Shown: positions 11,947 to 18,889 of the stretch, in pieces
Layout of the letters: every line of letters begins with the position of its first letter
Position numbering within the stretch: position 1 is the first letter of the stretch
Source: an uncultured Prevotella sp.
Lineage (GTDB): Bacteria > Bacteroidota > Bacteroidia > Bacteroidales > Bacteroidaceae
Length of the DNA stretch: 64,000 nucleotides
NCBI GenBank assembly: GCA_946186115.1
Contig: CAMHLV010000005.1
Coordinates: 30,729-94,728 of the forward strand
Direction of reading: 5' to 3'
Position numbers and translations under genes: made by a program
The notes under the pieces: generated by a model
Told to the model about the DNA's origin: nothing
What the model saw: the letters and a program-made list of their open reading frames with translations, nothing else
Database searches by the model: none

Positions 11947-13209
11947 TTATAGTTTGATACGTAAGGCCTGCTTGATATCTTCGAGCAGGTCGCTCTTGTC
12001 TTCCAGGCCTATGCTGAGGCGGACCGTCGTATCAGGAACGGACATCTCGGCGCACTGCTCGGGGGTGAAGAGCCCAAAGATGGTCGAGGCAGGATGGATG
12101 GCCAGCGACTTACGATCGAAGAGGTTGGTGGCACGACGGATTACCTGCAAGTTGTCGATAAACGCCCAGGCGGCTTCCTTCGATTCGAGATCGATGGTGA
12201 AAACGGCTCCAGGCAACTGACCGAATTGTCGTGTTGAGAGCTCGTAGAAGGGATTATCCTCCAAGCCAGTATAGTTGACGCGCTTGATTTCGGGCAACTC
12301 TCGACACTGCTGGGCAAGCCAAAGCGTAGTCTCTGCCTGACGACGGAAACGGATATCGAGCGTGTCGAGACCCAGCGTTTCCATATAGGCTGCCTGCGGC
12401 ATCATCAGCGAGCCGAGGTTTGTTATCAACTCAGTCTTTACACGAGCTGTAAAGGCCAGTTTCTTCCCCACCCTCTTGGTACGAGCCTGCAACACTGGCG
12501 ATGGATGCTGTGACCAGTCATAGCGTCCGTAGTCTATGAGCAGACCGCCCAGTCCGGTGCCTCCGCCGGAGATATATTTTGTGCTGCTGACCACCTCTAT
12601 ATCCACGCCCAACTCATTGGCATGGAAAGTAGAGAACGGCACGATGGTTGTATCGGCTATCAGGGGCACTCCTTTACGATGGGCAATCTCTGACAGCACC
12701 TTGATGTCGGCTACAAACAGCTGCGGATTGGTGATAATCTCAAAAAACAAGGCGCATGTCTTATCGTCTATCTGGGCCTCTACCTCCTCGGTCTTTGTGA
12801 AATCCGCAAAACGGACTTCCACACTGAATGCACCAAGCGTGTCACGAAGAAGCGAGACGCTGTTGCCAAACAAATGCTTCGAGGCTACGATGTTCAGTCC
12901 TGCACCACTCACGGCCGTCAGGGCATAGTGGATAGCTGCCATACCCGTGTTGAGCGCTGTCACGCTCTGTGCACCAGTTATCTGTCTGACACGCTCTTCC
13001 AAATAAGTCACCGTAGGGTTGGCGATACGAGCATACGACGGTGCCATTGAGCGACCGCAAAAGGCGTCGCTCATAGCCTTGGCATCGGGGAACTCGAATG
13101 CCGCCGTGTAATACACCGGCATCGAGAGAGCCCCGTATGCGTCAGGTTTCTGATACTTTGTGGTTAATACTTTTGTTTCGTAATTCATAATGCATAATTC
13201 ATAATGCAC
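11947..13209 (-). CDS. Cys/Met metabolism PLP enzyme (O-acetylhomoserine sulfhydrylase-like, MetY-like)
   Basis: Trans-sulfuration fold (SSTKYISGGGTGLGGLLID); last gene of the encapsulin operon. The start may be 13188, because the first residues MHYELCI derive from a low-complexity repeat. Confidence 0.85.
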   Translation of the reverse strand: MHYELCIMNYETKVLTTKYQKPDAYGALSMPVYYTAAFEFPDAKAMSDAFCGRSMAPSYARIANPTVTYLEERVRQITGAQSVTALNTGMAAIHYALTAVSGAGLNIVASKHLFGNSVSLLRDTLGAFSVEVRFADFTKTEEVEAQIDDKTCALFFEIITNPQLFVADIKVLSEIAHRKGVPLIADTTIVPFSTFHANELGVDIEVVSSTKYISGGGTGLGGLLIDYGRYDWSQHPSPVLQARTKRVGKKLAFTARVKTELITNLGSLMMPQAAYMETLGLDTLDIRFRRQAETTLWLAQQCRELPEIKRVNYTGLEDNPFYELSTRQFGQLPGAVFTIDLESKEAAWAFIDNLQVIRRATNLFDRKSLAIHPASTIFGLFTPEQCAEMSVPDTTVRLSIGLEDKSDLLEDIKQALRIKL

Positions 13210-13218
13210 AATGCATGA

Positions 13219-14727
13219 TTAGCTGCGCTGGCCCACGATCTTGCGCACGGCAATCACGAGTTTATCCACATCTTCGCGGGTGTTGTAGAGAGCGAAGGTA
13301 GGACGTACGCTCATCTCGTAGCCGAGAGCTCGGAGGGCGGGCTGAGCGCAGTGGTGACCGGCACGCACTGCGATGCCCTCCTTATCTAACAACGTACCTG
13401 TTTCGGGAACGGGGATGCTGTCGAGGACGAAACTCACTACCGACACGCGGTTCTTGGGGTCGCCAATAAGTGTGAGACCTGGAATCTGGGCCAGTTGCTC
13501 GCGGGCATACTCTGTCAGTTTGTGCTCGTGGGCCTCGATGTTACGGATGCCGAGATGACTCACGTAGTCGAGGGCAGCACCCAGTCCGATGGCGTCGGCC
13601 ACATTGGGCGTACCAGCCTCAAAGCGTGCAGGAGGCACATTATACTCCGTGCGCTCGATGGTCACGTCCTTAATCATGTTACCACCACCCTGCCAGGGCT
13701 GCATCTTGTCGAGGATGTCCTTGCGTCCATACACCACACCGATGCCGTTGGGACCATAGATCTTATGACCAGAGAAGACGAAGAAGTCGGCTCCTAACTG
13801 CTGCACATCGACAGGCGTGTGGGCAATCGACTGTGCACCGTCAATCAACACGGGGATGTTGTGCGAGTGTGCGATATCGATAATACGCTTCACGTCGTTG
13901 ATAGTGCCGAAGGTGTTGTTCACATGACCCACGCTAACGAAGCGGGTACGCGGCGTGATGATGCGCTCAAACTCTGACAGTATCAAGTCGCCGTTCTTAT
14001 CCGTTGGGATAGCCTTCAGCGTAGCCCCCCTTTCGTGGGCCACCTGCTGCCAGGGCACGATGTTGGCGTGATGATCCAGTTCGCTGACGATGACTTCGTC
14101 GCCAGGAGTCAGGAATTGCCTGCCGTAAGTCTGTGCCACAAGGTTGATACCCTCAGTGGTTCCTCGCACGAAGATGATCTCCTCGCTGCTGCCGGCATTG
14201 ATGAAGCGTTGCACCTTTTCGCGCGCTTCCTCATAGGCATCAGTAGCACGTGCTGCCAAGGTGTGGGCACCGCGATGGATGTTCGAATTATAAGTTTTGT
14301 AGTAATCCGAAATCTTGTCGATCACCTGTATCGGCTTCTGGGTGGTAGCACCGTTGTCGAGCCATACCAGGTCGTGGCCGTTCACCTTCTGTTGGAGCAC
14401 AGGAAAATCCTTTTTGATCTCCTCCGAGTTCAGTGTATCCACCTCCTCGTAGTGCAGGCTCTGCAGTTTCTCGGTCTCAGGGATACCGATGCCGAAGCCA
14501 TTGTCTGCCGGCACGATAGGCGAGGTGCCCTGTCCCGTAGGATGCGACTCTGTCGCATTGAACAGGACCGCCAACGACGAGAGGTCTAACTGCTCATCAG
14601 GAATCACCGCCTTTCGCTCGTCCTGCAACTCTTCAGGGCAGTACTTTTGTGCCACCTGCCGCAACAGTTCGAAGCCAGGATCTTGGATGCCGTAACCGCC
14701 TATATTTTGTATATTTATCATACGCAT
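13219..14727 (-). CDS. Cysteine desulfurase (SufS-like) with ~105 aa N-terminal extension; putative encapsulin cargo
   Basis: Core IKKDFPVLQQKVNGHDLVWLDNGATTQKP..., FVFSGHKIYGPNG..., RAGHHCAQPAL. The extension before the core is not part of SufS and precedes an encapsulin-type shell gene arrangement. Confidence 0.92.
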   Translation of the reverse strand: MRMINIQNIGGYGIQDPGFELLRQVAQKYCPEELQDERKAVIPDEQLDLSSLAVLFNATESHPTGQGTSPIVPADNGFGIGIPETEKLQSLHYEEVDTLNSEEIKKDFPVLQQKVNGHDLVWLDNGATTQKPIQVIDKISDYYKTYNSNIHRGAHTLAARATDAYEEAREKVQRFINAGSSEEIIFVRGTTEGINLVAQTYGRQFLTPGDEVIVSELDHHANIVPWQQVAHERGATLKAIPTDKNGDLILSEFERIITPRTRFVSVGHVNNTFGTINDVKRIIDIAHSHNIPVLIDGAQSIAHTPVDVQQLGADFFVFSGHKIYGPNGIGVVYGRKDILDKMQPWQGGGNMIKDVTIERTEYNVPPARFEAGTPNVADAIGLGAALDYVSHLGIRNIEAHEHKLTEYAREQLAQIPGLTLIGDPKNRVSVVSFVLDSIPVPETGTLLDKEGIAVRAGHHCAQPALRALGYEMSVRPTFALYNTREDVDKLVIAVRKIVGQRS

Positions 14728-14776: not shown

Positions 14777-16216
14777 TTACTTCTCTACTTTGTTCCTATG
14801 CTGATAATCGTGATAGTAGCCTACTTCCACGTTCTCAAGTACGGCGATAGCGTCGTCGGTGAGGGCTGCTAATGAGAAGTATTTCGTGAGCAGGTACGAA
14901 GCCACGCCAAACTTGTCAAGGCCCATCAGACGAGCTGACAGCGACGGAGCAATCTCACCGGGGATACCACTCTGATGGAGTCCTACTACACCCTGGTTCT
15001 GTTCGCCGGTACGCACGAGGATAATCTTCGTCGTGCCTACGCCGCGACCTGTCAGGTACTGGCCTTCCACCTCTACCTTATCCGATGGAATCAGGGGCAC
15101 GCCGCGCCACAGTACAACTTTCGTGCCGAAGAGGTCGGTGGTCACAGGAGGCACACCGCGCCATGTGCACTCACGCTCGAAGGCGGCGATGGCACGGGGA
15201 TTGGCCACGAAGAATGCCGGCTCCTTCCATACCAGCGACAGCAATTCATCGAGATCGTCGGGTGTCGGCGAGCCATAGCGTGCCGAGATGCGATATGCGG
15301 GGTTGGCAGCAGCCAGCAGACCGAACTTCTTATTGTTTATCAGTTCCCACTCCTGGCGCTCCTTGATGCTCTCTATCGACAGGCGCAGCTGCTCTTCCAG
15401 CTGGTTATAGGGGTTATTATAGAGGTCGCTGACGCGGGTGTGCACACGGACAACCGTCTGCAGGGTGTTGAGCGAGTATTCTGTGGGATTCTCCTCGTAG
15501 TCGATGTATGTCTCAGGAATGATGTTATCCTCCTCGTGGCCGCTTACCAGGTCGATGTGCTTCTCGCCATTGTCGTTGACCGAGGCCTTCAGGCGCAGTT
15601 GCTTGTCAACGGCCTTATTAAAGGTCTCGCGGAAGTCGGGCACTTCTTTAATGAACTTCACCAGTTCCTTCAGCTTCAGGCCGAGGAACACTGTGGGAGT
15701 GATAGCACGGACGCTAACCGTTGACTCCTGCTCGTCCAGCAGGTCGGCCTCGCCAAAATACTCACCGTCGCCCAAGAGAGCAATCCGTAGTTCCTCGCCA
15801 TGTGAGCCACGGCTGATAACCTCTGCCTGACCGGAAGCAACTATAAAGAAGCGCTGCTTGTCTTTGCCCTCCTCAACGAAGAGTTTGTCAACATCCACTT
15901 CCTGTGTCTCAAACGAGCTAACCAGTCGGTTCAGAATCTCGTCGTCAAACTCAGAGAACAGAGGGATGGCCTTGAGGTTCTTGGCTGTGAACGAGGGCTT
16001 TCCATCTACGTATTGTATCGGCAGACGGTCGTTCTTGCGTAGTTCAACTTTAGTACGATTAACGCGGAATGTACCGCCACTAACCTGTACCCAAGGGAGC
16101 AACTTGAGGAGTAATCTCGGAGTGATTGAGCCCATCTGTGGGGCGGTCTTGGTGGTGGTCGCCAGTCTTCTGGCGGTAGCAGTGGTCACACTGCGCTGAA
16201 GATTAGAATCTGCCAT
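14777..16216 (-). CDS. Family 2 encapsulin-like shell protein with internal cyclic-nucleotide-binding-like domain (Family 2B type)
   Basis: N-terminus ATARRLATTTKTAPQMGSITPRLLLKLLPWVQVSGGTFRVNR typical of Family 2 encapsulins; internal CRP-like domain (KLFVEEGKDKQRFFIVASGQAEVI...GDGEYFGEADLLDEQ); HK97-like C-terminal portion. Confidence 0.88.
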   Translation of the reverse strand: MADSNLQRSVTTATARRLATTTKTAPQMGSITPRLLLKLLPWVQVSGGTFRVNRTKVELRKNDRLPIQYVDGKPSFTAKNLKAIPLFSEFDDEILNRLVSSFETQEVDVDKLFVEEGKDKQRFFIVASGQAEVISRGSHGEELRIALLGDGEYFGEADLLDEQESTVSVRAITPTVFLGLKLKELVKFIKEVPDFRETFNKAVDKQLRLKASVNDNGEKHIDLVSGHEEDNIIPETYIDYEENPTEYSLNTLQTVVRVHTRVSDLYNNPYNQLEEQLRLSIESIKERQEWELINNKKFGLLAAANPAYRISARYGSPTPDDLDELLSLVWKEPAFFVANPRAIAAFERECTWRGVPPVTTDLFGTKVVLWRGVPLIPSDKVEVEGQYLTGRGVGTTKIILVRTGEQNQGVVGLHQSGIPGEIAPSLSARLMGLDKFGVASYLLTKYFSLAALTDDAIAVLENVEVGYYHDYQHRNKVEK

Positions 16217-16267: not shown

Positions 16268-16489
16268 CTATTTCTTAATTGTCACGCGATGCGTGGTGCC
16301 TTCTACGTGCTCGACGGAGATAACGTTGTAACCCTGTTCCTTTGCGTTGCGGGGAACGTTGTCGAGAGGTTCGCCCTCGGCGAGGAGCACTTCCAGAATG
16401 TCGCCTTCGTTGAGTTTCGAAAGTTCAATCTTCGTCTTTACGAAAGTCATCGGGCAATGCTCTTTCGTAATGTCTAAAACCTTTTTCAT
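16268..16489 (-). CDS. TusA-like sulfurtransferase / sulfur relay protein
   Basis: 73 aa with conserved HCPMTFVKTKIELSKLNEGDILEV motif. Confidence 0.85.
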   Translation of the reverse strand: MKKVLDITKEHCPMTFVKTKIELSKLNEGDILEVLLAEGEPLDNVPRNAKEQGYNVISVEHVEGTTHRVTIKK

Positions 16490-16623: not shown

Positions 16624-17103
16624 TCAGATAAACAATGTTTGTCCGCCTTCGCTCAAGTTGAGGAACGATGCCACACCAAGAACGTCCTTTACCTCGGGAA
16701 TAAAATCTTCCCTCTTGAGTCCCAGTACGTGCATCGCCATCTCACAAGCATAGAGATTTATGCCCAGGGCCTTGGCGGCCTCAACCAGTTCCTCCAGCGT
16801 AGCCACGTTGTTCTTCCTCATAAGGTATCGGAACAACTTGGGGCCTATACCGAAGAAATTAAAACGCGAGGTGGGTGTCACTTTCAGTCCGCCCATCATG
16901 AATCCGAAGATCTTGGTGAGCCAGTTGCCGCCCGTGAACGAGCGCCCCTGCTTTTTCTTGATAGCATCCAGTCCCCAGAAGGTAAAGAAGATGTTTACCT
17001 CATAGCCTACTGCTGCCGCGCCCGTACCTAATGTAAATACTGCCGTCAGCTTGTCGAAATCGCCACTAAAGGCGATGATACTTAATTTCTTTTGTTCTGC
17101 CAT
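16624..17103 (-). CDS. DsrE/DsrF/DrsH-like sulfur-relay protein
   Basis: 159 aa DsrE-type fold with conserved INLYACEMAMHVLGL cysteine region. Confidence 0.85.
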   Translation of the reverse strand: MAEQKKLSIIAFSGDFDKLTAVFTLGTGAAAVGYEVNIFFTFWGLDAIKKKQGRSFTGGNWLTKIFGFMMGGLKVTPTSRFNFFGIGPKLFRYLMRKNNVATLEELVEAAKALGINLYACEMAMHVLGLKREDFIPEVKDVLGVASFLNLSEGGQTLFI

Positions 17104-17368: not shown

Positions 17369-17581
17369 ATGGCAAAGATTTATGTAAATGGAGACGCGCA
17401 GGAAGTTACTCTGCCTCTCAACATTAGTGAACTCATCAAGAATTTATTAGTTGAAAACCCCGAGATGGTCTCAGTCCAGGTGAACGAGGAGTTTGCCGAG
17501 CGTGACGACTGGGACAACATCCAGATTCAGGAAGGCGACAATGTGGACTTCCTCTATTTCATGGGTGGCGGAAGTCTTTAG
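17369..17581 (+). CDS. ThiS/MoaD/CysO/HcyS-like sulfur carrier protein with masked C-terminus (...GGGSL)
   Basis: 70 aa ubiquitin-like protein ending FLYFMGGGSL, followed by E1-like and JAMM genes. Confidence 0.85.
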   Translation: MAKIYVNGDAQEVTLPLNISELIKNLLVENPEMVSVQVNEEFAERDDWDNIQIQEGDNVDFLYFMGGGSL

Positions 17582-17635: not shown

Positions 17636-18442
17636 ATGATAGATTTTTCTGAAGAACAGATACAGCGATACTCTCGCCACATACTGCTTAAGGATGTGGG
17701 TGTAGAAGGTCAAGAGAAGATAATGAACGCACGCGTGCTAGTGGTGGGAGCCGGTGGACTGGGAGCCCCCGTGAGTCTCTATCTTGCTGCAGCAGGAATT
17801 GGACGCATCGGTATCATTGATGCCGACGTAGTAGATTTGTCAAACTTGCAGCGCCAGGTAATCCACTTTACTAAGGATGTTGGAGTGCCAAAGGTAGAGA
17901 GTGCCAAGGAAAAGATTCTGGCCATCAACCCCGATGTAAAGGTTGACACCTACTATAAATTCCTTGATTCATCCAACGCACTCGACATTATCAGTGAGTA
18001 CGACTTCATTGTTGACGGTACCGACAATTTCCCAGTGAAGTTCCTCATCAACGATGCCTGCGTCATGGCTGGCAAGCCCTTCTCTCATGGAGGCATCCTG
18101 CGATTCAACGGCCAGACCTTCACACACCTGCCTGGCACGGCATGCTACCGCTGCATGTTCAAGGAGCCACCTCCCGTTGGAGCCGTCCCCACTTGTTCGC
18201 AAGCAGGAGTGCTGGGTGCTATTGCCGGCATGCTGGGTACTATCCAGGCTGCTGAAACGCTGAAATACTTTACCGGTATAGGTGAGTTGCTTACCAACCG
18301 CCTGCTGACATTCGATGCCAAGACCATGCAGTTCCGCACTGTACCTGTAAGACACCGCGACAACTGTGCCATCTGTGGCGAGCATCCCACCATCGATCAT
18401 CTCATCGACTACGAGCAAGCCGCTTGCGACTTGAAACATTAA
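17636..18442 (+). CDS. ThiF/MoeB/HcyF-like sulfur carrier adenylyltransferase
   Basis: RYSRHILLKDVGVEGQEKI, GAGGLGAPVSLYLAAAGIG, CYRCMF / CAIC zinc cysteines. Confidence 0.92.
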   Translation: MIDFSEEQIQRYSRHILLKDVGVEGQEKIMNARVLVVGAGGLGAPVSLYLAAAGIGRIGIIDADVVDLSNLQRQVIHFTKDVGVPKVESAKEKILAINPDVKVDTYYKFLDSSNALDIISEYDFIVDGTDNFPVKFLINDACVMAGKPFSHGGILRFNGQTFTHLPGTACYRCMFKEPPPVGAVPTCSQAGVLGAIAGMLGTIQAAETLKYFTGIGELLTNRLLTFDAKTMQFRTVPVRHRDNCAICGEHPTIDHLIDYEQAACDLKH

Positions 18443-18466: not shown

Positions 18467-18889
18467 TTGAGAATGATAATTCCACAGAACATCATAGATG
18501 AATTGATTGAGCAGGCAGAAAAGGATGCACCCAACGAGTCGTGCGGCTATCTCTTGGGCATACTCTCCCCCTCAACGGGGGGAGACGGAGGGAGTCTCGT
18601 GACGGAGAACTACTGGATGGAGAACATCGACCACTCACCCGAGCATTTCTCGTTTGCGCCAAAAGATCAGTTTGCCGCTCTGAAATATGCCCGTAGCAAA
18701 GGTCTGAAGATACTGGCCAACTGGCACAGTCATCCAGCCTCGCCCTCACGCCCCTCGCAGGAAGACCTGCGCCTGGCCAACGACCCCACCATCCGCTATG
18801 CCATCCTCTCGCTGCTTGACGGACAACCGAAGCTTAACTCCTTCAAGATACTGAACGGCGAGGTGGTGGATAAGCAGACACACCTATAA
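18467..18889 (+). CDS. JAMM/Mov34 (M67) metalloprotease, Mec/HcyD-like
   Basis: NWHSHPASPSRPSQEDL matches HxHx7Sx2D; directly downstream of ThiS-like and ThiF-like genes. Confidence 0.88.
   Translation: MRMIIPQNIIDELIEQAEKDAPNESCGYLLGILSPSTGGDGGSLVTENYWMENIDHSPEHFSFAPKDQFAALKYARSKGLKILANWHSHPASPSRPSQEDLRLANDPTIRYAILSLLDGQPKLNSFKILNGEVVDKQTHL

Follow-up and report, generated by a model that had tools for sequence, protein, structure and literature searches.

Why does an encapsulin shell that carries a CRP-like, cyclic-nucleotide-binding (CNB) domain adjoin a cysteine desulfurase in a rumen Prevotella, where would the liberated sulfur go, and what would the shell domain recognize? These questions are raised by a locus in a window of 64,000 nucleotides (the whole stretch of DNA analyzed here), in which the product of an open reading frame at 14777–16216 (−) is the 479-residue shell protein of a Family 2B encapsulin. 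The answer that we favor, with a probability of roughly 0.55, is a Family 2B desulfurase nanocompartment that feeds a TusA/thiocarboxylate sulfur pathway and whose shell domain accommodates a phosphate-free ligand instead of acting as a cAMP/cGMP sensor.

The family assignment is provided by several profiles: the NCBIfam model NF041163 (encap_f2b) matches residues 9–466 with 561.8 bits (cut-off 400), PF19307 scores 370.9 bits, far above its cut-off, and PF00027 covers residues 113–190 with 53.6 bits. The Family 2A model also exceeds its own cut-off (418.8 vs. 380 bits), but 2A shells have no CNB domain, whereas the window shell does. Its closest solved structures by sequence are 2B shells (9bje, E = 2.8e-114; 9bhu, E = 1.2e-101), which align colinearly over the full length and cover both the N-terminal arm and the insert. 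The arm can be aligned to solved shells of Family 2A and 2B (6x8m, 9bhu, 9bje), and 2A shells align without the insert. The CNB/CRP-like domain itself (residues 79–206; 15599–15982 (−)) is located between the N-terminal arm and the HK97 core, i. e. in the E-loop. An earlier note on this DNA described a Family 2 shell into which a CNB-like domain is inserted, and this description holds. When the whole shell was modeled with AlphaFold2 using 40 close sequences, confidence was confined to the CNB domain, with pLDDT values of about 66–92 per 10-residue block for residues 61–200; the isolated domain, modeled without an alignment, gave a poor model. Foldseek ranked the S. griseus 2B shell 9bhu as the top match of the domain, followed by the CNB domains of CRP, HCN and PKG proteins. 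Structure prediction is hence usable for the insert but not for the HK97 part, where pLDDT remained below 50. As judged from its sequence, the protein is a member of the published Family 2B kind with desulfurase and would presumably assemble into an icosahedral shell. Its C-terminal tail GYYHDYQHRNKVEK (14777–14821 (−)) has a YHDY-type end that, according to the alignment, is common to desulfurase-linked 2A and most desulfurase-linked 2B shells but missing from the 2B shells linked to terpene cyclases or xylulose kinase (the cargo of the comparison loci was checked with Pfam). Several long open frames run antisense to the shell gene (window 14975–16199 (+)), without evidence of being genes.

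In a tree based on the HK97 columns, the window shell falls within a Prevotella clade (100/99), and the Chlorobiaceae shells (17 rows, 100/99) form the sister group. Terpene- and xylulose-kinase-linked 2B shells constitute one group (100/100) and 2A shells another (100/100), both apart from the window shell. Comparing shell phylogeny with cargo type, as had been proposed, therefore places it with the desulfurase-linked shells of Prevotella and Chlorobiaceae. Full-length 2B shells outside the genus were confined to Chlorobiaceae in the phylum sample, and other classes gave 2A-type shells. The sister family (f42) is taken as Chlorobiaceae because the FMO protein was found in all four of its tested genomes. 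One Prevotella assembly contains two copies of the DsrE2–shell locus (G032:C32 and G032:C63; L050 and L061, same isolate), and several Chlorobiaceae assemblies carry a second shell gene on another contig; such duplicated loci could be mixed strains in a bin or true second copies. The locus is also present in two culturable relatives, Segatella baroniae and Xylanibacter ruminicola.

The putative cargo is encoded next to the shell gene at 13219–14727 (−). It is a SufS-like cysteine desulfurase of 502 amino acids with an N-terminal extension of about 106 residues (PF00266, 499 bits; TIGR01979, 556.7 bits; NF041166, 717 bits at a cut-off of 800), in which the PLP lysine motif SGHK (319–322) and the motif RAGHHCA with the catalytic Cys460 are intact, as in CyD-type cargo. 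In Prevotella and Chlorobiaceae, a desulfurase gene directly follows the shell gene at every locus whose contig extends far enough, and the arrangement is also annotated on a Kitasatospora plasmid. Family, gene order and active-site residues all mark this enzyme as the probable cargo of a shell that would have to assemble and load it. Systems of this kind have been described: PMC8346489 reports 199 operons from nine phyla that combine a Family 2B shell with a desulfurase and, as in the window, feature an HK97-type shell, a CNB insert and a desulfurase gene nearby. With 904 TC and 900 PT operons in the same account, the earlier remark that 2B shells are mainly linked to terpenoid-type cargo was right by count; the pairing with a desulfurase, which the earlier note had singled out as worth checking, is real but, given the published operons, not anomalous. 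The source genome contains a second SufS-like gene, a candidate for the housekeeping enzyme, which is itself flanked upstream by glycoside hydrolase genes.

A close parallel is SrpI–CyD from Synechococcus elongatus (Family 2A; PMC8049743), with which the window pair shares an HK97 core of about 57% identity, a SufS-like cargo and a YHxY-type C-terminus. SrpI differs by having no CNB domain, and the cargo proteins differ in their loading motifs: neither LARLANEFF nor YYFL, the two known from 2A cargo, occurs in any of 81 Prevotella cargo proteins, whereas Chlorobiaceae cargo retains them in 12/13 and 13/13 cases, respectively. Loading of the Prevotella desulfurases is therefore an assumption. 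They possess a conserved N-terminal motif of their own, FGxGxPE, in 68 of 78 proteins. The window cargo contains HPTGQGTS, which resembles the GPTGLGT-type motif of terpene cyclases from 2B systems, but this match was rejected, as only 3/83 Prevotella cargo proteins have it. The SrpI lumen residue F262 was likewise dismissed as a desulfurase-specific contact, since it corresponds to Leu in the window shell and to Phe in terpene-linked shells. At one locus (L013:7614–9317), the desulfurase extension contains tandem repeats of about 15 residues (ALVQYDASPQHPA), which shows that the presumed loading region changes length fast.

The genes around shell and desulfurase suggest where the sulfur may go. 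On the minus strand, a DsrE2-like sulfur carrier with a single cysteine, Cys120 (16624–17103 (−); PF13686, 138.9 bits; NF047629, 70.9 bits, below cut-off), and a TusA-family carrier with Cys12-Pro13 (16268–16489 (−); PF01206, 73.1 bits) precede the shell, and a MetY-like PLP enzyme of the O-acetylhomoserine/O-acetylserine sulfhydrylase family (11947–13209 (−); PF01053, 285 bits; TIGR01326, 314 bits, below cut-off) follows the desulfurase. The resulting order is DsrE2, TusA, shell, desulfurase and MetY-like enzyme, and the intervals between these genes measure 134, 51, 49 and 9 bp. Divergent to this run are genes for a ThiS-like sulfur carrier ending in GGGSL and thus with a buried Gly-Gly (17369–17581 (+); TIGR01683, 58.6 bits), a ThiF/MoeB-like E1 adenylyltransferase (17636–18442 (+); PF00899, 272.7 bits) and a JAB/JAMM metalloprotease with the motif HSHx7Sx2D (18467–18889 (+); PF14464, 80.5 bits). 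DsrE2 and TusA are encoded just upstream of the shell on the same strand in all 75 Prevotella loci with 2 kb of upstream sequence. Of the 48 loci with 6 kb available on both sides, 42 contain ThiS/ThiF/JAB and 44 contain the MetY-like gene, in several orders. Across loci, GGG is mostly followed by one to four further residues at the end of the ThiS-like carriers, and 62/63 loci have an intact JAB motif, as would be expected if the protease unmasks the carrier. At ≥95% identity, DsrE2 was detected only in the five shell-bearing genomes among 36 of the genus. The JAB gene occurs in four of these five and also in five congeners without a detected shell; this part of the pathway is thus not exclusive to shell bearers.

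A related gene set is known from Wolinella, in which thiocarboxylate-dependent homocysteine synthesis relies on HcyS, HcyF, HcyD and MetY. Both sets comprise a ThiS-like carrier with masked Gly-Gly, an E1 enzyme, a JAB protease and a MetY-like enzyme, but the window genes adjoin a desulfurase encapsulin together with TusA and DsrE2, and the pathway here is predicted from genes. At one Chlorobiaceae locus (L160), shell and desulfurase are placed between cysK/cysE-like genes and a run of metB-like, thiS, thiG, thiH and thiF genes, with identities read from the sequences and from BLAST comparison with the window genes; this setting again looks like a sulfur-carrier neighborhood. In the main text of PMC8346489, the neighbors named for desulfurase shells are rhodaneses and serine acetyltransferases, without mention of TusA or DsrE. 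In the window, their place is taken by TusA/DsrE2 and ThiS/ThiF/JAB/MetY, and a further difference from these shells is an acidic residue in the cassette of the CNB domain.

This cassette, FGEADLLDEQESTVSVRA, spans shell residues F154–A171 (15704–15757 (−)). In an alignment with PKG and PKA CNB domains, S165 stands opposite the phosphate-binding Arg, so that the shell lacks the residue expected of a cNMP-binding CNB domain; E156 is kept, and D158 provides an acid at the position GE+2, the second residue after GE. Of 116 shells from Prevotella and Chlorobiaceae, 115 have Ser at position 165 and 112 retain Glu156; position 158 is always acidic (Asp in 103, Glu in 13), and R144 is invariant. The Arg-to-Ser exchange noticed earlier is hence fixed and no sequencing accident. 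Regarding it as an anomaly, in contrast, did not survive comparison. Among 35 aligned Family 2 shells, Arg is absent from the aligned position in every 2B member, whatever its cargo, including the Streptomyces shells that align over their full length (9bhu, 9bje; S. lydicus Enc1/Enc2, PMC12407261), which makes its loss ordinary for 2B. Moreover, only 3 of 55 ordinary Bacteroidales CNB domains keep the phosphate Arg, and Arg loss was therefore rejected as a special feature of the window shell. The more informative residue is the acid at GE+2, which the earlier note overlooked along with the surrounding sulfur-relay genes. It occurs in 0/55 of the ordinary Bacteroidales domains (placed by profile alignment, since a phmmer alignment reached only nine), and the residue there is small or uncharged in shells linked to terpene cyclases or xylulose kinase. 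The Streptomyces 2B shells, whose comparison loci encode terpene cyclases or xylulose kinase, form a separate clade with neither this acid nor the YHDY-type tail. Conservation is concentrated in this part of the domain: mean entropy over the 116 shells is 0.60 for residues 140–171 vs. 1.09 outside, and residues 124–155 are the most conserved of the CNB domain, which has otherwise diverged so far that Prevotella and Chlorobiaceae share about 43% identity. Conservation of the block 124–155 in an otherwise fast-diverging domain argues that the pocket has a function.

The closest functional precedent, by analogy, is found in trypanosomatid PKA. Its regulatory subunits have nanomolar affinity for inosine, guanosine and adenosine and do not bind cAMP (PMC10959531). 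An acid at GE+2 combined with a polar residue in place of Arg is the signature of their 'ribose-binding cassette', in which E311 and E435 set the nucleoside preference (PMC10959531). The shells display the same combination, with the GE element likewise kept. The Prevotella and Chlorobiaceae domain profile (positions 3–109) aligned to residues 160–266 of 6flo with equal lengths, which puts E156, D158 and S165 opposite E433, E435 and N442, the latter numbers being derived from the construct 199–499 and the equal alignment lengths. The analogy has its limits: trypanosomatid PKA is a eukaryotic kinase regulator, the two cassettes represent a similar solution without evidence of common descent, and the Asp at GE+2 of the window shell is shorter than the trypanosomatid Glu, which counts against a nucleoside. 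By this comparison, a phosphate-free ligand is the most likely occupant of the conserved pocket, which combines Glu156, the GE+2 acid and a Ser in place of Arg. On the best reading, the shell domain would sense such a ligand, perhaps a nucleoside, or else be structural.

A degenerate but working sensor of cAMP, cGMP or c-di-AMP that controls the desulfurase would fit the PF00027 match and the CRP/PKG-like fold, and a c-di-AMP cyclase is encoded by nearly all congeners, although the gene was not found in the source genome, which is 79% complete. However, sensing of cAMP or cGMP is unlikely because the domain is devoid of the phosphate Arg, and the GE+2 acid would, by analogy with PMC10959531, clash with a phosphate. 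Class III adenylate cyclase was found in 0/22 and class I in 0/18 genomes of the genus, compared with class III in 9/14 genomes from other families of the order. In addition, 2B domains reportedly fail to bind cyclic nucleotides, as was found when such a domain was tested by others (PMC12407261). The doubts voiced earlier about cAMP/cGMP sensing were thus well placed, and a cyclic-nucleotide sensor of any type appears very improbable. A considerably stronger competitor, if still not the one that we would bet on, is a ligand-free module that serves a structural or pore-shielding role and whose ancient pocket is filled by side chains, similar to ligand-independent FNR/CRP regulators. The GE+2 acid could then form a salt bridge inside the pocket, for which the invariant R144 might pair with D158 or E156; cavity salt bridges of this type occur in ligand-independent CRP/FNR proteins (PMC12937710). 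Within 2B shells, moreover, the CNB domains vary more than any other part, with no ligand known (PMC12407261), and Arg is missing from most Bacteroidales CNB domains, too. Retention of E156, the canonical ribose-contact Glu, and the conserved block in a diverged domain are at odds with a pocket that merely fell into disuse.

A separate doubt concerns the sulfur. Conceivably, the main task of the nanocompartment is to store elemental sulfur, a function reported for a desulfurase encapsulin of Family 2A (Benisch et al. 2024, as cited in PMC12407261), and TusA, DsrE2, ThiS and MetY are mere neighbors in a sulfur-metabolism region, in line with a gene order around the core that differs between loci. 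Yet the DsrE2–TusA pair is fixed in its position, and ThiS/ThiF/JAB and MetY stay close even after rearrangement. We consider pure storage possible but unlikely; storage and relay are not mutually exclusive.

For the favored desulfurase nanocompartment with a sulfur relay, a tentative sequence of events can be drawn from the conserved gene content. Cysteine would enter the shell, where the desulfurase forms a persulfide. The sulfur may then leave the shell to TusA and DsrE2, which would pass it to the ThiS-type carrier as a thiocarboxylate, with the ThiF-like E1 charging and the JAB protease trimming this carrier. From there, it could proceed to the MetY-like sulfhydrylase to give homocysteine or cysteine. 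If the CNB domain sits above the two-fold pores as in published 2B shells, ligand binding might alter pore access. A bolder and rather speculative extension is that, in desulfurase-linked 2B shells of Bacteroidota (Prevotella and green sulfur bacteria), the domain is a nucleoside sensor that gates the two-fold pores and thereby controls the flow of cysteine-derived sulfur to TusA and methionine synthesis. Its ligand would perhaps be adenosine, inosine or a nucleoside of the methionine cycle such as methylthioadenosine or S-adenosylhomocysteine.

Taken together, this locus adds two points, both read from sequence, to the published kind of Family 2B desulfurase encapsulins: the ribose-cassette pattern and a conserved neighborhood of sulfur-relay genes. 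The ligand of the 2B shell domain is stated as an open question of the encapsulin field (PMC12407261), and a cassette that is fixed in and specific to this clade, with a precedent solved in eukaryotes, narrows it to a short list of candidate compounds. Likewise, the conserved TusA/DsrE2/thiocarboxylate neighborhood suggests a destination for the sulfur released by an encapsulated desulfurase, and it does so in common rumen bacteria.
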